IMG/VR virus record: IMGVR_UViG_3300025767_000170
Coordinates: 1-20,017 of that record
Length of the DNA: 20,017 nt
Strand: one strand, 5' to 3'
DNA from: a virus
Numbering within the stretch: position 1 is the stretch's first letter; every line of letters starts with the position of its first letter. Below, piece after piece: positions 496-10,052 of the stretch. The position numbers and the translations under genes were made by a program. The notes below the pieces were generated by a model. It saw nothing but the letters and a program-made list of their open reading frames with translations, was not told the DNA's origin and made no database searches.

Positions 496-1800
496 ATGGC
501 AGATTTTGGTAAGATAAATGAATTTAGAAAGACGACTCAATTAAGGAAGATCAATGAGGATCCTACTTATTTGAGCTTCTTCTTTTTGTTTGATTCTTCT
601 CGAGAACATTCACCTCTACTATCGGGTGTTGCCGAAGAATATTTAAGAAATGTAGTTGGTGATACTGAAAGGGCTGATCTATTAGCTCGTTTTGTTAAAC
701 TTTTAAAGAAGATTAATACAGAACTGCCATGGTTTTGGCAAAGCGTATCCGGGCTTGAAACTACTAGGAAGTATAACAAGATGGAAGATCCTTGGCGTGG
801 TGCTGGAGAATCAAAGCTAGAGATTGAATGCCTAGAGAATGTTGAACTTACTGCTGCAACTCTAATTGATCTTTATAAAAGAGCAGCATATGATTTTAAC
901 AGGTGGGTTGAAGTTATTCCTAAAAACTTACGTCATTTCGAAATGACAGTCTATGTCACTGAAGTTAGATCATTCCAACAGACCACTGAAGCTGGACTTT
1001 TAAACTCAAAAGATAAAGATACCTCAAGTACTGAGATTAGAAATCCAGACAAAACTAATACCAATAACGCTACTAACACCGAGATGTCTATTAACGCTAA
1101 ACCTATTTTTGTAACTAAATTAGGGTATTGTGAATTTAATATAGAATCCACTAGCGATATGTTTGCTAGTTTGACAAAAAACCCAGAAATGGCACAGTCT
1201 AAAATTATAATAGACTGGAATACTGCTGAACAGAGCAGTCAATTATACGGTCAAAACTTAAATGCTAATCAAGATAATAGTTTAGTGTTTCAAAGAAATA
1301 CTGATCCTAGACTGGCTGAATATAACCCGCTTGACCCTATTAATCCTATTGATAAGCTTAAAGAAAGGGCAAAAGATAAATTAGATGGTGCTATTGCAGG
1401 CGTAACAAATATATTAGGTGGACTTCCAGGAGATAGAGGTGCTTTAGGTAATGCACATGGTTCTCTGTTAACAGGGCAGCTTGGACAACTAGCAAACTCT
1501 ATAGTTGAAGGAGCACTTGCACGACTTCTACTTGGTAACGTACATGGCATTAATGCGGCATCTACAATTCAAGATGCAATAAACGCAGGTAGTTTAAATG
1601 GAATAGCTAATGCAGCTGGACAACTGTTTAAGCAGTTTAACAGACCTTCGCCCGGCACCGGAAATGACGTGATAGCTCCGAAAAAGATCTATCCAGAAAA
1701 TGCGATAGATAGTTCACAAGGACCTATTAACGAAAGAATACATGAACCGGGAGTAGACAGTAGTCCAGACGGCAACTTAAACCAGAACGTATATGAATAA
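496..1800 (+). CDS. Probable tail-tube initiator / baseplate tube-cap protein with Gly/Ala-rich C-terminal tail
   Basis: This 434-residue protein has two visible parts. Residues ~20-255 are tail-tube-like: a central RHFEMTVYVTEVRSF strand pair (~146-160) and, after a low-complexity Asn/Thr linker (~170-200), a second strand block (~204-242) ending near KIIIDWNTAEQ. Tail tube proteins and their gp48/gp54-type caps show this type of paired-strand pattern with a hydrophilic loop. Residues ~285-380 are Gly/Ala/Leu-rich and carry the motif LGN(A/V)HG twice (317-322 and 346-351). The last ~50 residues are polar and Pro-rich. The ATG at 496 has the leader AATATATAGTAC and no Shine-Dalgarno site. The end overlaps the spike gene by 8 bases, suggesting coupled translation. 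The position just before the spike fits a protein joining hub to tube. The function is inferred from fold pattern and context; no diagnostic motif proves it. Confidence 0.5.
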   Translation: MADFGKINEFRKTTQLRKINEDPTYLSFFFLFDSSREHSPLLSGVAEEYLRNVVGDTERADLLARFVKLLKKINTELPWFWQSVSGLETTRKYNKMEDPWRGAGESKLEIECLENVELTAATLIDLYKRAAYDFNRWVEVIPKNLRHFEMTVYVTEVRSFQQTTEAGLLNSKDKDTSSTEIRNPDKTNTNNATNTEMSINAKPIFVTKLGYCEFNIESTSDMFASLTKNPEMAQSKIIIDWNTAEQSSQLYGQNLNANQDNSLVFQRNTDPRLAEYNPLDPINPIDKLKERAKDKLDGAIAGVTNILGGLPGDRGALGNAHGSLLTGQLGQLANSIVEGALARLLLGNVHGINAASTIQDAINAGSLNGIANAAGQLFKQFNRPSPGTGNDVIAPKKIYPENAIDSSQGPINERIHEPGVDSSPDGNLNQNVYE

Positions 1801-2509
1801 CGATGAACTTTATAGAGATAATCTTAGGGATACACACTGGCTTGGTGAAGTTATGGTTAATGAAGACCCACTTCTAAAAGGCAGATGTCGCGTTAAAGTC
1901 TTCGGTAAATTTGATCTGTTGACAGACGATGCTATTCCATGGGCAACACCAATGAACAGAGACGCAGTAGGCTCTCATCATGTACCTAGATTAGGTGATA
2001 TTGTTGCAGTACGCTTTGACAACGGTAACATATATCACCCAGAATACTGGTTCCAAGTAGATCAGAACGATGACCTAAAGACAGACATTCTTGAGGCATC
2101 AGATAGCCCACAGGACGTCATAAGCTTAGTCTATGATGCCGAAAGAAATTTAAGGATATATCACTCACCGGAAGACGGTCTTGTGATTACACGCGGCTCT
2201 GGTGCTAAAGAGCGACCGATGATTCAAATTGATGAAGAGGGCTTTATAAAGATAAGTACTGACGCTAAGATGTTTCTAGACTGTGGTGATATTTTTATCT
2301 CAAATGAAGGTGAATCTGGAGCAGATGAGACTGAACCGGCAGTTCGTGGCCAATCCTTACAAGACTGGTTGCAAAAACTATTGGATGACTATAATACACA
2401 CATCCATCCAACTGGAGTTGGTCCTAGCGGCCCACCGATGCCTCCAACGCCAGTTACCGTTGGAGAACTAACAACTACTCATATTAACTATCAACAAAAA
2501 GGTAAATAA
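1793..2509 (+). CDS. gp5: Baseplate spike protein, OB-fold gp5/gpV type, without lysozyme domain
   Basis: This is the likely central spike under the tail tube that pierces the host envelope on contraction. Residues ~14-90 match the gp5/gpV/VgrG OB-fold pattern: WLGEVMVNEDPLLKGRCRVK, then IPWATPM, then PRLGDIVAVRFDNG, ending HPEYWF. Residues ~115-170 are short beta strands (RIYHSPEDGLVITR, MIQIDEEGFIKIS), compatible with the start of a beta-prism. The C-terminus (~183-215) has the spike-family ending AVRGQSLQDWLQKLL...HIHPTGVGPSGPP. At 238 residues it is far shorter than T4 gp5 (575) and has no room for the T4 lysozyme domain. The start overlaps the preceding gene by 8 bases, and its TAA overlaps the next ATG (TAATG), so translational coupling is likely on both sides. 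The OB and HIHPTG features make the family call firm. Confidence 0.88.
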   Translation: MNNDELYRDNLRDTHWLGEVMVNEDPLLKGRCRVKVFGKFDLLTDDAIPWATPMNRDAVGSHHVPRLGDIVAVRFDNGNIYHPEYWFQVDQNDDLKTDILEASDSPQDVISLVYDAERNLRIYHSPEDGLVITRGSGAKERPMIQIDEEGFIKISTDAKMFLDCGDIFISNEGESGADETEPAVRGQSLQDWLQKLLDDYNTHIHPTGVGPSGPPMPPTPVTVGELTTTHINYQQKGK

Positions 2510-4352: not shown

Positions 4353-5636
4353 ATGTCAAACAAAAACAAACGAACTCGTATCAGTGCGACGGCTGATAAT
4401 GAAGTTAAAAGAGAGCAATCTACACAAAACGTCGAATCAAACAACATTTCAGAAGAGCCAAAGACTGAGCATAGTGAATTCTATGACAAGGACGGCAATT
4501 TTATGTGGGAAGCTTATGAGTCTACTTGTATTTCACATACAAGAAAACCTAATCCACATATTAAGACTAGACCTGGAGATAAGGTTTACTCTCGTGAGCC
4601 GTATGCTCAAGAAATGTACAACATACTGCAAGACTTTGAAATCAACCAGACTATTAAATCAAAAGTTAGTATTGGTGAGATCCACTCCGGTATTATTCAT
4701 GCAGTAACTCAAGACACTATTACAGTTGATATTGGGTACAGAGAACTAATCTATGTAAAGGCTGATAAAGAGCCTCAGCATATTAAAGAACTTTTGCCAG
4801 GTGATGAAACTGCAGTCTTGATTGTCAATACGGACAATGCATATATTTCAGGTTCAATTTCAGGTGGTGTTAAACAGAAGGTCTTTATGGATCTTAGAGA
4901 TGGAGTAGAGTCAGGTGATACTGCTTGGGTCGGTCTTATTAAGAGTATGATTGAAAACGGAGGTTATATCGTTGAAGTGCAAGGTATTGAATGTTTCATG
5001 CCAGGCTCACTTGCAGGTATTAATAAACTCGCAGACTTTGAGTCAATCATCGGTCAAGAACTCTATGTTGTACCAGTATCTTTCTCAGCAGGTAGAGGCA
5101 CAATTGTTGTTTCACACAGAAAATATCTACAAGCATTAATTCCACAGGAGATTGAGAAGATTAAAGAGAATGCGGGTGAAGAAATCACAGGTAATGTAAC
5201 AGGAACTGCTAAATACGGCGTCTTTGTTGAATTTAACAGATGTTTGACAGGTATGATTCACAAGAATGATCTAGATCCAGAAACATTCGAGAAGTTTAAG
5301 AAGCGTGAAATTATGCCAGCGGATGAAGTTACATTCAAGGTAAAGGAAGTTATCTCGAATACTAAGATTACTCTAACACAAATAGACAATGTACATACCA
5401 ATCCTTGGGATGATATTGCTACAAGGTATAAGATCCCAGCAGTTGTTAAAGCTCAAGTAAAAGCCAGAAAAGAATACGGCCTCTTTGTTACGATTGAAGA
5501 TGGTATTGTTGGTCTACTACATGTTAGTGAATTAGGTGAAGATGTAATGAATATCTTTAATCCAGGCGACGATATTACAGTCAAGATAACTAGGATTGAA
5601 GAGGAGACTCAGAAAGTCTTTCTTAAATTACCATAA
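4353..5636 (+). CDS. Ribosomal-protein-S1-like RNA-binding protein with four S1 domains
   Basis: This 427-residue protein has a polar, disordered-looking N-terminus (~1-45), a ~60-residue unassigned segment, then four S1-type OB repeats. Repeat 1, ~107-169, contains VDIGYRELIYV. Repeat 2, ~190-256, contains GGYIVEVQGIECFMPGS and ends IVVSHRK. Repeat 3, ~276-343, contains GTAKYGVFVEFNRCLTGMIH. Repeat 4, ~363-427, contains KARKEYGLFVTIEDGIVGLLHVSEL and ends VFLKLP. Repeats 3 and 4 are the clearest. Repeat 2 resembles the second domain of bacterial bS1, which with domain 1 docks on the 30S subunit; later domains bind RNA. Bacterial bS1 usually has four to six repeats, so this is a complete compact version. 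Possible roles are recruiting late phage mRNA to ribosomes or protecting RNA. The leader is A/T-rich (AATATAAAATAA) with no Shine-Dalgarno site. The domain call is strong; the role is inferred. Confidence 0.9.
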   Translation: MSNKNKRTRISATADNEVKREQSTQNVESNNISEEPKTEHSEFYDKDGNFMWEAYESTCISHTRKPNPHIKTRPGDKVYSREPYAQEMYNILQDFEINQTIKSKVSIGEIHSGIIHAVTQDTITVDIGYRELIYVKADKEPQHIKELLPGDETAVLIVNTDNAYISGSISGGVKQKVFMDLRDGVESGDTAWVGLIKSMIENGGYIVEVQGIECFMPGSLAGINKLADFESIIGQELYVVPVSFSAGRGTIVVSHRKYLQALIPQEIEKIKENAGEEITGNVTGTAKYGVFVEFNRCLTGMIHKNDLDPETFEKFKKREIMPADEVTFKVKEVISNTKITLTQIDNVHTNPWDDIATRYKIPAVVKAQVKARKEYGLFVTIEDGIVGLLHVSELGEDVMNIFNPGDDITVKITRIEEETQKVFLKLP

Positions 5637-5686: not shown

Positions 5687-6997
5687 ATGAATAAATTAAG
5701 TAGACAATCTACAAGAGAGTCAATTCTCAATGCAGCCTTAATGGGCATTGAGTTTGAATTTTACTCAAAAAAGAACCTAGAAGAAACCCATAAAATGATT
5801 GGGGATCTTCTAGGTTTACCTATTAGTCTAGAAGATAAAGCACATTCTGAATTTCAACCATCGGCCAAACATTTTAAGATGGAACCTGATATGTCAGGTG
5901 GTTCAGGCTTAATCGAACTAGTAACCGGTCCAATGCCATATCGTAACGCTAGGATTGTTGTTATTAAGATGTTAGGTTGGATCAGAGAACATGGTTATAC
6001 AACCGATAGAGCTTCGATCCACTTAAACATGTCGTTCGATAAGAAGTATCTTGAAGATCCGATGATGGTATCGAAGATGAATACTCTTAAATTTATCTTG
6101 ACCTTTAATGAAAAGCAGGTCTATAAATTCTTTCCAAATAGAGAGAATTCAGTCTACGCAAAATCAATTAAGTTTGTAATGCCGAAGCATGAAGCTGCGC
6201 ATTTCAGTGCTGAACATGTTAACCCAATGAACTTTGTATTTCCAGACACTAAGTATTATGGTGTTAACTTCTTAAAGAAAGAGAAGAACTATCTAGAGTT
6301 TAGATATATTGGCGGTAAAGATTATGAACAGAGGCAAGATGACATACTTTATATGGCTGATCGATTTATCCTACAACTTTTTAAAGCATGTACTCAGCCT
6401 GAATTTACAGCTGAGGATAAGATTGAGCTCAAGTATATCTTAAATAAGAACTTACCAATTCTTGAGGCTTTAAAAGACCACAGGAACTTAAATAAACACT
6501 GGCCTAATATTAATATCTTAGTTGATCTACAAGATGACTATCAGATTATTAAAGTACAGTGGGATAGAATTAAAAGAAGGGTATTAGACTTAATTATCCA
6601 TGGCTCTCTAGAAAAGGGTGTGGTTAACTATGACTCTGACTTTTCTTCGATACAAGTTAAAGACGGTAAGATGTCAACATGTTTCTTAGCTGAAAATTAC
6701 GAGTTTATTACATCTGAAATTAGAGGTAATTTAATTAATTGTGACTTTTATGCATGTAAGGTTGAAGGTTCAGATTTACAGTATTGTAACTTCTATCAGT
6801 CAACTGAGATAAAGGAGTCTAAGATTCAGTCTTCATATGTACATGGAAGTTGTACTGCTGTCAATAGTTATGTTTTTGGTAGAGATGGTATCTTTAAAGG
6901 TAAAATGATAGGTGGTATATTTAGAGAGGGTAATATTGGCCCTTATGCTAGATTTGAAGATACAGAAATCGTAGTAAGTAAAAAAATAAATTCATAA
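5687..6997 (+). CDS. Predicted amidoligase (glutamine-synthetase-like fold) fused to a pentapeptide-like beta-helix
   Basis: Residues ~17-240 carry the motif series of the amidoligase_2 group of ATP-dependent carboxylate-amine ligases. These are GIEFEF (20-25) with the acidic pair E22/E24, EPDMSGG...ELVTGP (66-82), HLNMSF (112-117), and YGVN...YLEFRYIGG (191-210) with N194, E204 and R206. In this fold the acidic residues hold metal-ATP, and the Asn and Arg contact nucleotide or substrate. Residues ~240-310 are helical and link to the tail. From ~335 to ~390 bulky residues recur about every five positions (F340, I345, I350, F354, V359, L364, F369, I375, I380, V385), with CDF and CNF units: a pentapeptide-like right-handed beta-helix. 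The end (~390-430) is Gly-rich and may continue it. Known relatives make amide or peptide bonds; the substrate here cannot be read from sequence. The ATG sits right after a hairpin, 50 bases past the S1-like gene. Confidence 0.8.
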   Translation: MNKLSRQSTRESILNAALMGIEFEFYSKKNLEETHKMIGDLLGLPISLEDKAHSEFQPSAKHFKMEPDMSGGSGLIELVTGPMPYRNARIVVIKMLGWIREHGYTTDRASIHLNMSFDKKYLEDPMMVSKMNTLKFILTFNEKQVYKFFPNRENSVYAKSIKFVMPKHEAAHFSAEHVNPMNFVFPDTKYYGVNFLKKEKNYLEFRYIGGKDYEQRQDDILYMADRFILQLFKACTQPEFTAEDKIELKYILNKNLPILEALKDHRNLNKHWPNINILVDLQDDYQIIKVQWDRIKRRVLDLIIHGSLEKGVVNYDSDFSSIQVKDGKMSTCFLAENYEFITSEIRGNLINCDFYACKVEGSDLQYCNFYQSTEIKESKIQSSYVHGSCTAVNSYVFGRDGIFKGKMIGGIFREGNIGPYARFEDTEIVVSKKINS

Positions 6998-6998
6998 A

Positions 6999-7838
6999 AT
7001 GAGTGAAATTAGAAGTGGTAATGAAAATGGTTTAACATCGCCTAGAGATTTTAGTGATGATTGTTTAAACGAGTTTCTAGATGAAATTGGTGATGAAATC
7101 ACAGGCGCGTGTATGGTACCTGTTAACCTGCCAAAAAAAGAGATCATTAATATTATCAAGAGAGCTAAAAAATGGTTCTATAAGAAGTATGAGGATTCTG
7201 TAAGGGAGAACTATTACCATATCCCAAAAGAGATTTTTAAGACTGATTACTTTAAGACACATAGATGTTTAACCTTACCAGACGCTGCTGCTGATGGTTC
7301 AGGTAAAGTTTATGCTGTTTATGGTGTTTATGATCTAGCCAGCGGCTGGAACAACATGGGTGGATCAGATTTAAGATTTCAATCTGGTGCTGACTTCTCA
7401 ATTGACAAAATGTTATTTAGAAGAATGTATGATGGCTCAGGACCTGCTCAAGCGGCTGAGGAGCTACAGTATTATGTACTTAACGCTTCACTTGCTGATC
7501 TTTCAAGACAGATTCTTGAGAATCCACTCTCTTTTCAGTATTCAAGACTGACTGGTGATTTAAAGTTCATGGGTGATACACCAAAGGGTGATATTATTTT
7601 AGAAGTTTACGAGACAATTCCAGACTGTGCACTTTACGATGATGAGATATTCTTTAGATATATCAGTGCAAAGATCAAGCAATCACTTGGTGCTAAATTA
7701 GGCATCTTTAAGTTTGCTCTACCAGGCAACGTTGACTTCGACTATGATGCGATTAAATCAATGGGTGATGATGAACTTGCAGCTATTGAAGAAGAAATCA
7801 AAGGCGACGAAGGTGTGGACTGGATGTTCCACAGCTAA
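6999..7838 (+). CDS. Unrecognised structural-cluster protein
   Basis: This 279-residue protein begins one base after the previous TAA, so its expression is probably coupled to the amidoligase. The N-terminus is polar. A helix-rich, Lys-rich segment follows (~45-85, EIINIIKRAKKWFYKKYEDS), then a mixed segment with an Asp/Gly-rich loop (DAAADGSGKVYAVYGVYDL, ~95-113). The middle holds long helices (~145-175) and a strand block (FMGDTPKGDIILEVYETIP). The C-terminal ~35 residues are strongly acidic (DDELAAIEEEIKGDEG). There is no signal peptide or membrane segment. The early amphipathic helix and later strand block would suit a connector, neck or wedge-contact protein, but I cannot place it in a family. 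It could also be a substrate or partner of the neighbouring amidoligase; that is speculation from adjacency. Confidence 0.7.
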   Translation: MSEIRSGNENGLTSPRDFSDDCLNEFLDEIGDEITGACMVPVNLPKKEIINIIKRAKKWFYKKYEDSVRENYYHIPKEIFKTDYFKTHRCLTLPDAAADGSGKVYAVYGVYDLASGWNNMGGSDLRFQSGADFSIDKMLFRRMYDGSGPAQAAEELQYYVLNASLADLSRQILENPLSFQYSRLTGDLKFMGDTPKGDIILEVYETIPDCALYDDEIFFRYISAKIKQSLGAKLGIFKFALPGNVDFDYDAIKSMGDDELAAIEEEIKGDEGVDWMFHS

Positions 7839-7855
7839 AAGAGATACATATAAAG

Positions 7856-8212
7856 ATGGAATTATACGTTAAATATGTTGGCGACCCTAATTATGATCCA
7901 AATCAAGTTCATATTGAGAATGAAGTTCAACAACTTGTAACTCAAATTGAAACTACTCTTTTTACTAACAAAGGAGAAGTTTTAGGCGCTCCTGATTTTG
8001 GCTGCAACCTAGAGGACTTAATATATTCATTAGGGTACAATGAACATCAATTAAAATCAACAATAGATGGTCAGCTAGGCGCATATTGCCCACTGGCTGC
8101 AAAATATAACGTAGAAACCAAGATTAGCTTTTTACGAGGTGCCGTGAGAGATATTGCTTATATTGACATCACAATTAATAGCAAGTATCTTGTACAAGTT
8201 TACGTAAATTAA
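7856..8212 (+). CDS. gp25: Baseplate wedge protein, GPW/gp25 family
   Basis: This 118-residue protein matches the family's usual length (T4 gp25 is 132). The core motif is NKGEVLGAPDFGCNLEDLIYS (residues 38-58), the family's characteristic 'turn, then acidic strand and DFG-x-L-x-D-L' segment. It is followed by a helix and a strand pair (VETKISFLRGAVRDIAYIDITI, ~86-107). In contractile systems gp25 joins the baseplate inner ring to the first sheath ring and binds the gp6 wedge. The gp6-like gene follows 13 bases downstream, the usual gene pairing. The leader ACATATAAAG has no convincing Shine-Dalgarno site; an AGAG lies too far upstream (about 13 bases). The assignment is firm from motif, length and neighbour together. 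Confidence 0.92.
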   Translation: MELYVKYVGDPNYDPNQVHIENEVQQLVTQIETTLFTNKGEVLGAPDFGCNLEDLIYSLGYNEHQLKSTIDGQLGAYCPLAAKYNVETKISFLRGAVRDIAYIDITINSKYLVQVYVN

Positions 8213-8225
8213 ATAAACAAAACAG

Positions 8226-10052
8226 ATGGCAGATCTTAAATTTTTAAATAAACTTAGAGTAACAGGTGCTCAGATTAAACAAGATGCAAGAACTTATATT
8301 TCTCGTATCTACAAGCGTGCCGGTACTTTATTTACAGAAGCTTCTCCTTTTGCTCAGCTTTTAAGCGTAATGAGTGAGATGAGCGAGTTGATTATGTTCT
8401 ACGTGGAAGATTCTTTAGTAGAACAAAATATTTATACAGCTCAACAAGCCGAGTCTATTTATGGTATGTCAAGACTGACCGGCCATGATGCCACTAGAGG
8501 TTATGCCGCGTTCGGTGAAATTGATTTTAGATGGAAACCAGGTGCTGACTTTACTAAAATCGCAGGTACAGGTTTAACATTTGATGGCAGAGCTGTTATT
8601 AAATTTGACTCAAACGGTCTAAAATATACAGTACAAACTCCAAGAGAACGATTTAGAGTTGAGAAGAGTAATAAGAATAAATTTACATGTGAAATTATCC
8701 AAGGTGAATATGAGTCTCAAACCGTAACTGGAACTGGCGAGAATCTACAGTCTTTTAATATTAATGTTAGAGGTTTAACCGATCATAATAAGATTACAGT
8801 TTATGTAAACGGTGAAGTATGGACTAAACATGTTTCACTATATGACATGAACGCTAATGAGAAATCATACATAGTAAAGACTGGAATAAGCGGAGGTCTA
8901 GATCTTTATTTCGGTAACGGTTCGTTTGGTATGCCACCTGCAAATGGCGCTACGATTGAAGTTGAATATATCAAACACGATGGCGATAAGGGTAATTTAA
9001 GAGACGGTTCCGATCTAACTGTAAAATGGGAAACTGAAGGTGAAGACTCAATTGGTGAACTACATGATCTAAATGAGTTCTTTGACGTGACTGTAACTTC
9101 ATCTCCGAAAATGGGAGCTGAACGCGAGTCGACTGAGTTTACAAAGATCCTAACACCACTTGCTAGCAAGTCATACGTGTTAGCCACTCCAGACAACTAT
9201 GAGTACTTTCTTTCTAAGTACAATCAATATTCATATATTGATGCATATAACCGCACAGACGACCAGTATCTAGACGATGATAACGTAGTTTACATCTTTG
9301 CAATGCCAGACTTTAAGAGAAAACTGACTGCAAATATGGATTACTTCTCTCTACCACAACAAGAGATGTTCTTTACACAAAGTGAATATGATGCGATGTA
9401 CCAGGTGATACAAAATTCAGGTCAGATGATGATGGCCGCTGAGGTTAAATTTGTAGAACCTGTCGTTAAGAAGTATAGTATGGATGTTGCTATCAGATAT
9501 TTTGATGGCTTTAGCAAGCAAGAAATTGCAAACGATGTGAGATTGGCTATCTCAAACTATATGCTTAATATTACAAGAAGAGATAAACTGCCTAAGTCAG
9601 ATATTGTCTATATCCTTGAAGAGATTGAGGGTATTGACTCTGTTAACGTAAGGTTCATCAGTCAGAAAGAAGAAGATGCACTTAGATTAGGTTACTACGA
9701 GACCGTAATAACTACTATTCAGCCACAAGAACCAGTTACCCTTGAGAATATCGGTAACGGTAAACAAAAGTATGTATTCTTTCAGAAGATTGAAGAGTCT
9801 AATCTAGTTAGAATTAATCCAGGCGACTCTATCCCAGATTCAGTTAGAGGCCTAGATCAATGGGGTGATATTATAATGGGCAAAGATGAAGTTGCTATTT
9901 TTAGAGGAGGCTGGTTAGACCGTGACGGCGATCTTGTTGATGATGATGTAAAATTAAATGAAGAGGCTGCACTAAGTATAAACTTTGATGAAGCTCCTGT
10001 GCCTAGAACGATTTACACTAGAGTACAGGCTGGAAATAGAAAAGCGTTATAA
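8226..10052 (+). CDS. gp6: Baseplate wedge protein, gp6 / Baseplate_J-like
   Basis: This 608-residue protein is close to T4 gp6 (660). gp6-type wedges form the iris-like inner ring that drives baseplate opening and sheath contraction. The N-terminus (~1-75) is helical. A beta domain (~95-255) contains ITVYVNGEVWTKH and the family-typical strand and turn FGNGSFGMPPANGATIEVEY (229-248). The section ~413-479 has the Baseplate_J C-terminal pattern: a strand (KKYSMDVAIRYFDGFS), a helix (EIANDVRLAISNYMLN), then SDIVYILEEIEGIDSVNVRFIS. The remaining ~130 residues are an acidic tail (DRDGDLVDDDVKLNEEA), longer than the J core needs. The start ATG begins ATGGCAGATCTT; a similar ATGGCAGAT opens the tube-cap-like gene. 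Its TAA overlaps the next ATG (TAATG). Confidence 0.9.
   Translation: MADLKFLNKLRVTGAQIKQDARTYISRIYKRAGTLFTEASPFAQLLSVMSEMSELIMFYVEDSLVEQNIYTAQQAESIYGMSRLTGHDATRGYAAFGEIDFRWKPGADFTKIAGTGLTFDGRAVIKFDSNGLKYTVQTPRERFRVEKSNKNKFTCEIIQGEYESQTVTGTGENLQSFNINVRGLTDHNKITVYVNGEVWTKHVSLYDMNANEKSYIVKTGISGGLDLYFGNGSFGMPPANGATIEVEYIKHDGDKGNLRDGSDLTVKWETEGEDSIGELHDLNEFFDVTVTSSPKMGAERESTEFTKILTPLASKSYVLATPDNYEYFLSKYNQYSYIDAYNRTDDQYLDDDNVVYIFAMPDFKRKLTANMDYFSLPQQEMFFTQSEYDAMYQVIQNSGQMMMAAEVKFVEPVVKKYSMDVAIRYFDGFSKQEIANDVRLAISNYMLNITRRDKLPKSDIVYILEEIEGIDSVNVRFISQKEEDALRLGYYETVITTIQPQEPVTLENIGNGKQKYVFFQKIEESNLVRINPGDSIPDSVRGLDQWGDIIMGKDEVAIFRGGWLDRDGDLVDDDVKLNEEAALSINFDEAPVPRTIYTRVQAGNRKAL

Follow-up and report, generated by a model that had tools for sequence, protein, structure and literature searches.

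A predicted amidoligase–β-helix fusion kept among the tail genes of a giant-phage family, whose own tail it may modify

A family of giant phages keeps a gene for an amidoligase joined to a β-helix among its tail genes, and the product may modify the phage's own tail. The example described here lies in the window, by which we mean the whole 20,017-nt stretch of DNA that was analyzed (IMG/VR record IMGVR_UViG_3300025767_000170), and the features of the window are collected in Table 1. Its product is very probably an active amidoligase, as predicted from motifs and fold, fused to a β-helix. The gene belongs to a tail run of 14 one-strand genes with intergenic gaps of -11 to 50 nt, where it sits between the S1-domain gene on its 5' side and the Ad2 neck gene on its 3' side. 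A sequence-only reading made before this analysis had placed the fusion among baseplate genes, which agrees with the spike/OB, gp25-like, and gp6/J-like genes found in the same run. No T4-type late promoter word was found on the + strand upstream of the fusion gene. The gene is under purifying selection, with dN/dS values against four relatives of 0.033 (L009), 0.038 (L007), 0.088 (L014), and 0.120 (L015), the last two being rough estimates because dS is high; these values are within the range of the neighboring genes.

Table 1. Features of the window and of the fusion gene, with the evidence for each
Feature	Position	Strand	Evidence or remark
gB434	496..1800	+	no family; cluster F12; some megaphage loci have homologues close to the fusion gene
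Tail spike/hub OB protein	1793..2509	+	PF04717 7.5e-6; phrog_37871 2.1e-12
S1-domain protein, upstream neighbor	4353..5636	+	PF00575 3.3e-21
Amidoligase-β-helix fusion gene	5687..6997	+	436 aa, intact, ATG to TAA
Predicted GS-like catalytic domain, about residues 1-240	5687..6406	+	AF2 model; PF12224 in relatives
GIEFEF, E22 and E24	5744..5761	+	both invariant, 63/63
KMEPDMSGG, E66 and D68	5876..5902	+	E66 60/63; D68 63/63
ELVTGP, E77	5915..5932	+	invariant, 63/63
SIHLNMSF, H112 and N114	6014..6037	+	H112 62/63; N114 63/63
KYYGVN, N194	6251..6268	+	invariant, 63/63
LEFRYIGG, E204 and R206	6293..6316	+	both invariant, 63/63
Mostly helical link, about residues 241-305	6407..6601	+	AF2 helices 242-254, 256-263, 266-271, 285-304
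Predicted C-terminal pentapeptide-like β-helix, about residues 306-424	6602..6958	+	separate model, VIA, periodicity
Neck protein, PHROG head-tail adaptor Ad2	6999..7838	+	phrog_211 2.1e-10; start 1 nt past the fusion stop
gp25-like baseplate wedge protein	7856..8212	+	phrog_43 0.0012; PF04965 0.0071 (under cut-off)
gp6/J-like baseplate wedge protein	8226..10052	+	phrog_219 2.2e-29

The motifs GIEFEF, EPD, ELVTGP, HLN, YGVN, and EFR had been read from the letters as an intact active site, and each is present at the residues then named. In alignment A4, which holds the window protein and 62 relatives with less than 80% mutual identity (63 rows), eight of the motif residues are invariant, and H112 and E66 are nearly so (Table 1). 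Such constancy is at odds with free variation and rules out chance motifs. A second alignment of 60 rows, A5, was the input for an AlphaFold2 model of the window protein (pLDDT 91.9, pTM 0.83). With this model, Foldseek ranks glutamine synthetase (GS) first (2.3e-5), with low TM-scores (about 0.27), since the match covers one of the two domains, and VIA aligns it with glutamine synthetases at Z 11.7 (rmsd 3.2-3.6 over 185-186 residues). Both searches thus place the N-terminal domain in the GS-like fold. Neither of the two refutations named in the sequence-only reading, a fold other than GS-like or free variation of the motif residues, was observed. In these models, the relation to glutamine synthetase is visible by fold only: E. 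coli glutamine synthetase gave no match by sequence (hhalign probability 0.9%), the window protein alone had no match in a PDB sequence search, and the enzyme part was unmatched, apart from weak unrelated rows, in the alignment-based PDB sequence search.

Profile evidence for the proposed membership in the Amidoligase_2 family comes from the relatives and not from the window protein, which alone has no Pfam amidoligase match even at E <= 10. PF12224 is matched by 24 of the 63 A4 members at E <= 10 (best 1.3e-8), and its 22-bit cut-off is passed by L149, L150, L174, L182, L183, and L187 (22.5-31.3 bits), six of the 30 members scanned singly and all from one batch of ten. These six are 40-53% identical to the window protein. 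A further relative, L107, scores 21.5 bits with hmmscan and 22.1 bits in a genome search. Against PHROG, the window protein matches phrog_33777 (1.6e-6), a family of unknown function. We base the amidoligase assignment on the profile matches of the relatives together with the phrog_33777 match and the GS-like fold. Judging from motif order, the site residues would be equivalent to the metal and ATP ligands of GS, and we infer the ligase chemistry by likeness to GS-like ligases.

A five-residue periodicity at residues 340-385 had suggested a β-helix. This periodicity is hydrophobic (p = 0.001 against 10,000 shuffles of the window protein) and recurs with p < 0.05 in 59 of the 60 A5 rows. The β-helix itself is present in the models, but its extent of 306-424 is about 2.5 times that first proposed. 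When residues 303-436 are folded separately, the model (pLDDT 93.2) has strands from about 306 to 424, and short strands recur about every five residues throughout the C-terminal part of the models. The predicted helix is related in its five-residue steps to pentapeptide-repeat proteins (AlbG, MfpA, Qnr, NP275-276), from which it differs in being a domain of an enzyme, with an irregular repeat and sub-cut-off Pfam scores. Pentapeptide_4 is matched by 39 of the 63 A4 members at E <= 10 (best 8.7e-7), with all pentapeptide scores below the 38-bit cut-off among the members scored (26.8 bits at most, 12.1 for the window protein), and AlbG-like pentapeptide proteins match the alignment profile at 4.2e-5 in the PDB sequence search. 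The exact class of the modeled β-helix is less sure because in VIA the best match, the pentapeptide-repeat fusion 2j8k (Z 10.2), is tied by the Ag43 autotransporter (9.8), as it is by synthetic solenoids. Foldseek E-values for this part are modest, and the SV2A luminal β-helix is ranked first.

The β-helix is more variable than the enzyme part, with a mean top-residue frequency of 0.46-0.53 against 0.58-0.63 for residues 18-240. Its end, GGIFR.G..G, is conserved, and R413 is invariant. NCBIfam HalA is matched by 19 of the 63 A4 members (best 9.4e-5); we propose no anti-phage role of the HalA kind, as the HalA structure aligns with profile positions 333-398 alone, that is, with the β-helix. In LR756501, a separate ORF of ~692 aa has two stretches that resemble the β-helix part alone (L353 and L354, 617785-618408).

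To avoid the bias of baiting with the enzyme, the presence of the gene was assessed with two other genes of the run, Ad2 and gp6, as baits; both favor the window's lineage, and the two locus sets overlap. With Ad2, 75 of 80 loci were testable (at least 2.2 kb upstream), and the fusion gene is upstream in all 75, at 400 aa or more in each case. With gp6, 62 of 80 were testable (at least 4.5 kb upstream), and the gene is present upstream of Ad2 in all 62, with 61 copies of at least 400 aa. The lone apparently broken copy in the gp6 set (L333:4445-5743) has its enzyme match in several pieces, as if frameshifted, which could be an assembly error or decay. Together the baited loci hold 76 distinct copies, 23 of which (by the last 300 aa) are absent from the set of 170 relatives described below. 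The fusion gene and Ad2 are separated by no more than 16 nt in 73 of 75 loci of the Ad2 set and in 61 of 62 of the gp6 set. Among loci with all five genes (the window and 23 others, with 4 of 27 loci excluded), pairwise identities of the fusion correlate with the corresponding identities of Ad2 (r = 0.92) and gp6 (r = 0.96). The S1-domain gene is kept beside the fusion gene across the window's lineage. The fusion gene is a core gene in this lineage; an accessory or lone gene is ruled out by its presence in every testable Ad2- or gp6-baited locus.

A comparison with 45 distant megaphage loci, 42 of them with distinct proteins, shows a changed gene order relative to the window. In 32 of the 42, the flank of the enzyme holds a family that is either tail- or neck-named or homologous to the window's tail run, a raw count, uncorrected for background, from loci of shared ancestry that are not independent. 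The count becomes 34 of 42 once F2, which is named by no library, is included; the tail family F12 is counted because it weakly matches PHROG and is homologous to gB434, which has no name either. The flank of L143 has an additional gp6 match, and in 10 of the 42 loci the flank examined lacks any named tail family. An S1-domain gene is near the enzyme in one of the 42, and the S1 match lies about 50 to >400 kb from it in LR756504, LR745206, LR756501, and LR756502, which weakens the case for the S1 neighbor as a constant partner. The enzyme is more than 200 kb from Ad2 and gp6 in LR745206 and LR756501, and about 2 kb from Ad2 in LR756504. Homologues of the window's S1-domain gene occur in LR756500-LR756504, LR745206, and Lak phages. 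In the Lak-B5 megaphage, where the Ad2 and gp6 homologues read through TAG, there is no enzyme match at E <= 0.1 despite matches to Ad2, gp6, and S1, so the wider tail type can do without the enzyme. Taken together, one lineage has the enzyme as a core gene and megaphages carry it widely, yet the wider tail type does not depend on it.

By sequence, the fusion is a large family and no one-off. Scan A1 gave at least 493 relatives among at least 599 pattern-matching stretches and scan A2 at least 490; the best 80 were taken from each. The 170 translated relatives, which do not include Salicola phage SCTP-2 (L022) or a copy truncated at the end of its contig (L017), represent 129 distinct proteins, and all 170 have the full fused length (429-483 aa). 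Five relatives belong to GenBank entries 462-735 kb in length (LR756500, LR756501, LR756502, LR756504, and LR745206); LR756503, with a match at coordinates identical to those in LR756501, is outside the five counted. Huge-phage genomes in this size class are the Mahaphages, predicted to infect Bacteroidetes, according to an excerpt of PMC7162821. A cellular source was rejected: of 58 pattern-matching stretches in cellular contigs, one was a relative, and it sits on a 5.9 kb MAG contig with phage tail genes. Among 46 genomes of that MAG's phylum, no further A4 match was found, and PF12224 was matched in one further genome of the phylum.

The sequence-only reading knew of no phage system with this combination. 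That view is wider than the databases allow: phage amidoligases as such are common there, and what is out of the ordinary is the fusion and its link to the tail. The best viral model in a BFVD search, A0A6J5PQ40 (uncultured Caudovirales phage, 439 aa), matches over the whole length (TM 0.85/0.84, 24% identity) and is followed by many phage amidoligases. The enzyme type is thus already known, and the enzyme-β-helix fusion looks undescribed: in the titles and abstract openings of the open-licence literature, we found no paper on an amidoligase-pentapeptide fusion and nothing on an amidoligase detected among phage virion proteins by mass spectrometry. The Amidoligase_2 proteins (PF12224), which include phage proteins annotated "amidoligase enzyme", have in common with the window protein the fold, the motif order, and the profile match of its close relatives; the fusion adds the C-terminal β-helix and a fixed place in the tail run. 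Partner genes of Amidoligase_2 encode a glutamine-amidotransferase-like peptidase and an Aig2-like cyclotransferase; Pfam scans of ten of the 14 proteins in the window named neither, and such a gene may lie elsewhere.

Two cultured phages outside the fusion family have informative homologues. The protein AUZ94978 of Agrobacterium phage Atu_ph07 (A0A2L0UZM1, 500 aa; 30.7 bits) is homologous to the fusion by tblastn (2e-5) and profile comparison, and it lies beside virion genes as the window fusion lies beside tail genes; however, its C-terminal part is different, with no β-helix apparent in the sequence. Its gene is located two genes before the Atu_ph07 portal gene, on the opposite strand, and corresponds to gp196 because portal gp198, topoisomerase gp200, prohead core gp204, and capsid gp215 share the numbering offset. 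It falls inside the region of CDS 170-215, described in an excerpt of PMC6102473 as one of three clusters with most virion proteins. In SCTP-2, gp124 and gp125 (phrog_33777) have site motifs homologous to those of the fusion. They differ from it in being a tandem pair (647 and 606 aa) that carries a long insert and a leader-like N-terminus and in which no β-helix is apparent. The two N-termini (gp125 and gp124, L022:10924-14684) share MKF..IK.N and I-x-E-G and resemble a head-targeting leader that carries a protease site. When the SCTP-2 gene neighbors were compared with 15 Atu_ph07 proteins, the amidoligase was the sole match.

Location suggests to us, tentatively and with a likelihood a little short of even, that an ATP-dependent amidoligase is tied to the assembly or function of the tail and has a tail protein as its substrate. 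The enzyme, an Amidoligase_2/GS-like ATP-dependent amide-bond former with a C-terminal pentapeptide-type β-helix, would be produced with the tail gene run of a huge-phage lineage. In the cleft of the E-x-E, D...E, H-x-N, and E-x-R motifs, metal-bound ATP would phosphorylate a substrate carboxylate, and an amine would attack the acyl phosphate to yield the amide. The β-helix would keep the enzyme on its partner, and hub, spike, neck, or baseplate proteins are candidate substrates, which would leave a modified or cross-linked tail. We also infer the activity, timing, and location of the enzyme. A GS-like amidoligase with a β-helix in a structural cluster, read earlier as an enzyme held on a scaffold, is indeed apparently intact, joined, and in the tail run, and the scaffold idea itself fits. 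It is unlikely that huge phages use a dedicated, scaffold-bound ligase specifically to form amide cross-links, or to attach amino acids, in the hub or neck of their own tails as an enzyme-made covalent finish. The HK97 capsid contains amide cross-links between its virion proteins, formed without a dedicated ligase, and the fusion enzyme would share with it amide bonds in virion proteins if the tail cross-linking reading is true.

The retained link to tail genes favors a virion or tail-linked role over host tagging or wall remodeling; the location may also reflect late timing alone. We consider it rather unlikely that the enzyme modifies a host protein (e.g., a component of the translation machinery), either at a late stage of infection or once it has been injected, with the tail run serving expression or packaging only. 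The starts of SCTP-2 gp124 and gp125 argue for such a role, since they presumably resemble the head-targeting leaders of injected T4 proteins. So does the S1-domain neighbor in the window's lineage, as phage S1-domain proteins are proposed in an excerpt of PMC7162821 to redirect translation. However, the S1 gene stands beside the enzyme in just one distant locus and is far removed in the LR records cited above, and the fused enzymes are without a leader of the gp124/gp125 kind.

Action on cell-wall peptides, either to close the hole that the tail makes or to change cross-links against superinfection, would accord with the neighbors in distant megaphages, which include tail proteins with VanY peptidase (PF02557 1.3e-14) and GH19/endolysin-like parts, and it has precedent in amidoligases, GS-like and others, that act on small peptides. 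It is nevertheless quite improbable, as no export signal or wall-binding part is seen by eye, no wall-enzyme neighbors were found among the scanned proteins of the window's lineage, and no ATP is expected outside the cell. The fixed place in the tail run, and the frequency of β-helices in tail spikes and needles, would also suit an ex-enzyme that is now a non-catalytic structural or assembly part; this we hold to be very unlikely because E22, E24, D68, E77, N114, N194, E204, and R206 are invariant in A4, and a dead enzyme would have no need of them.

A gene found in every testable locus of a lineage performs something that the lineage needs. If the tail-modifying reading is correct, a phage tail would be covalently modified by an enzyme, and we know of no precedent for that. 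The fusion family offers a tangible entry point to the function of phage amidoligases and to the ways in which tails are built or used by the largest phages known.

We note two observations on the surroundings of the enzyme in the distant loci. A DHH-family protein (F1, PF01368 6e-4; e.g., L113:9379-11094, - strand) flanks the enzyme in 26 of the 42 distinct loci. A start like MKYLKxYExF is found in 51 of 667 distinct ORFs (at least 70 aa, M start) from L018-L023 (without L022) and L109-L148, compared with 2 of 2903 internal Met positions, and looks like a shared N-terminal targeting tag, which we take to be reminiscent of T4 head-targeting leaders. The tag is absent from the enzyme and present on the F1 and F13 genes beside it.
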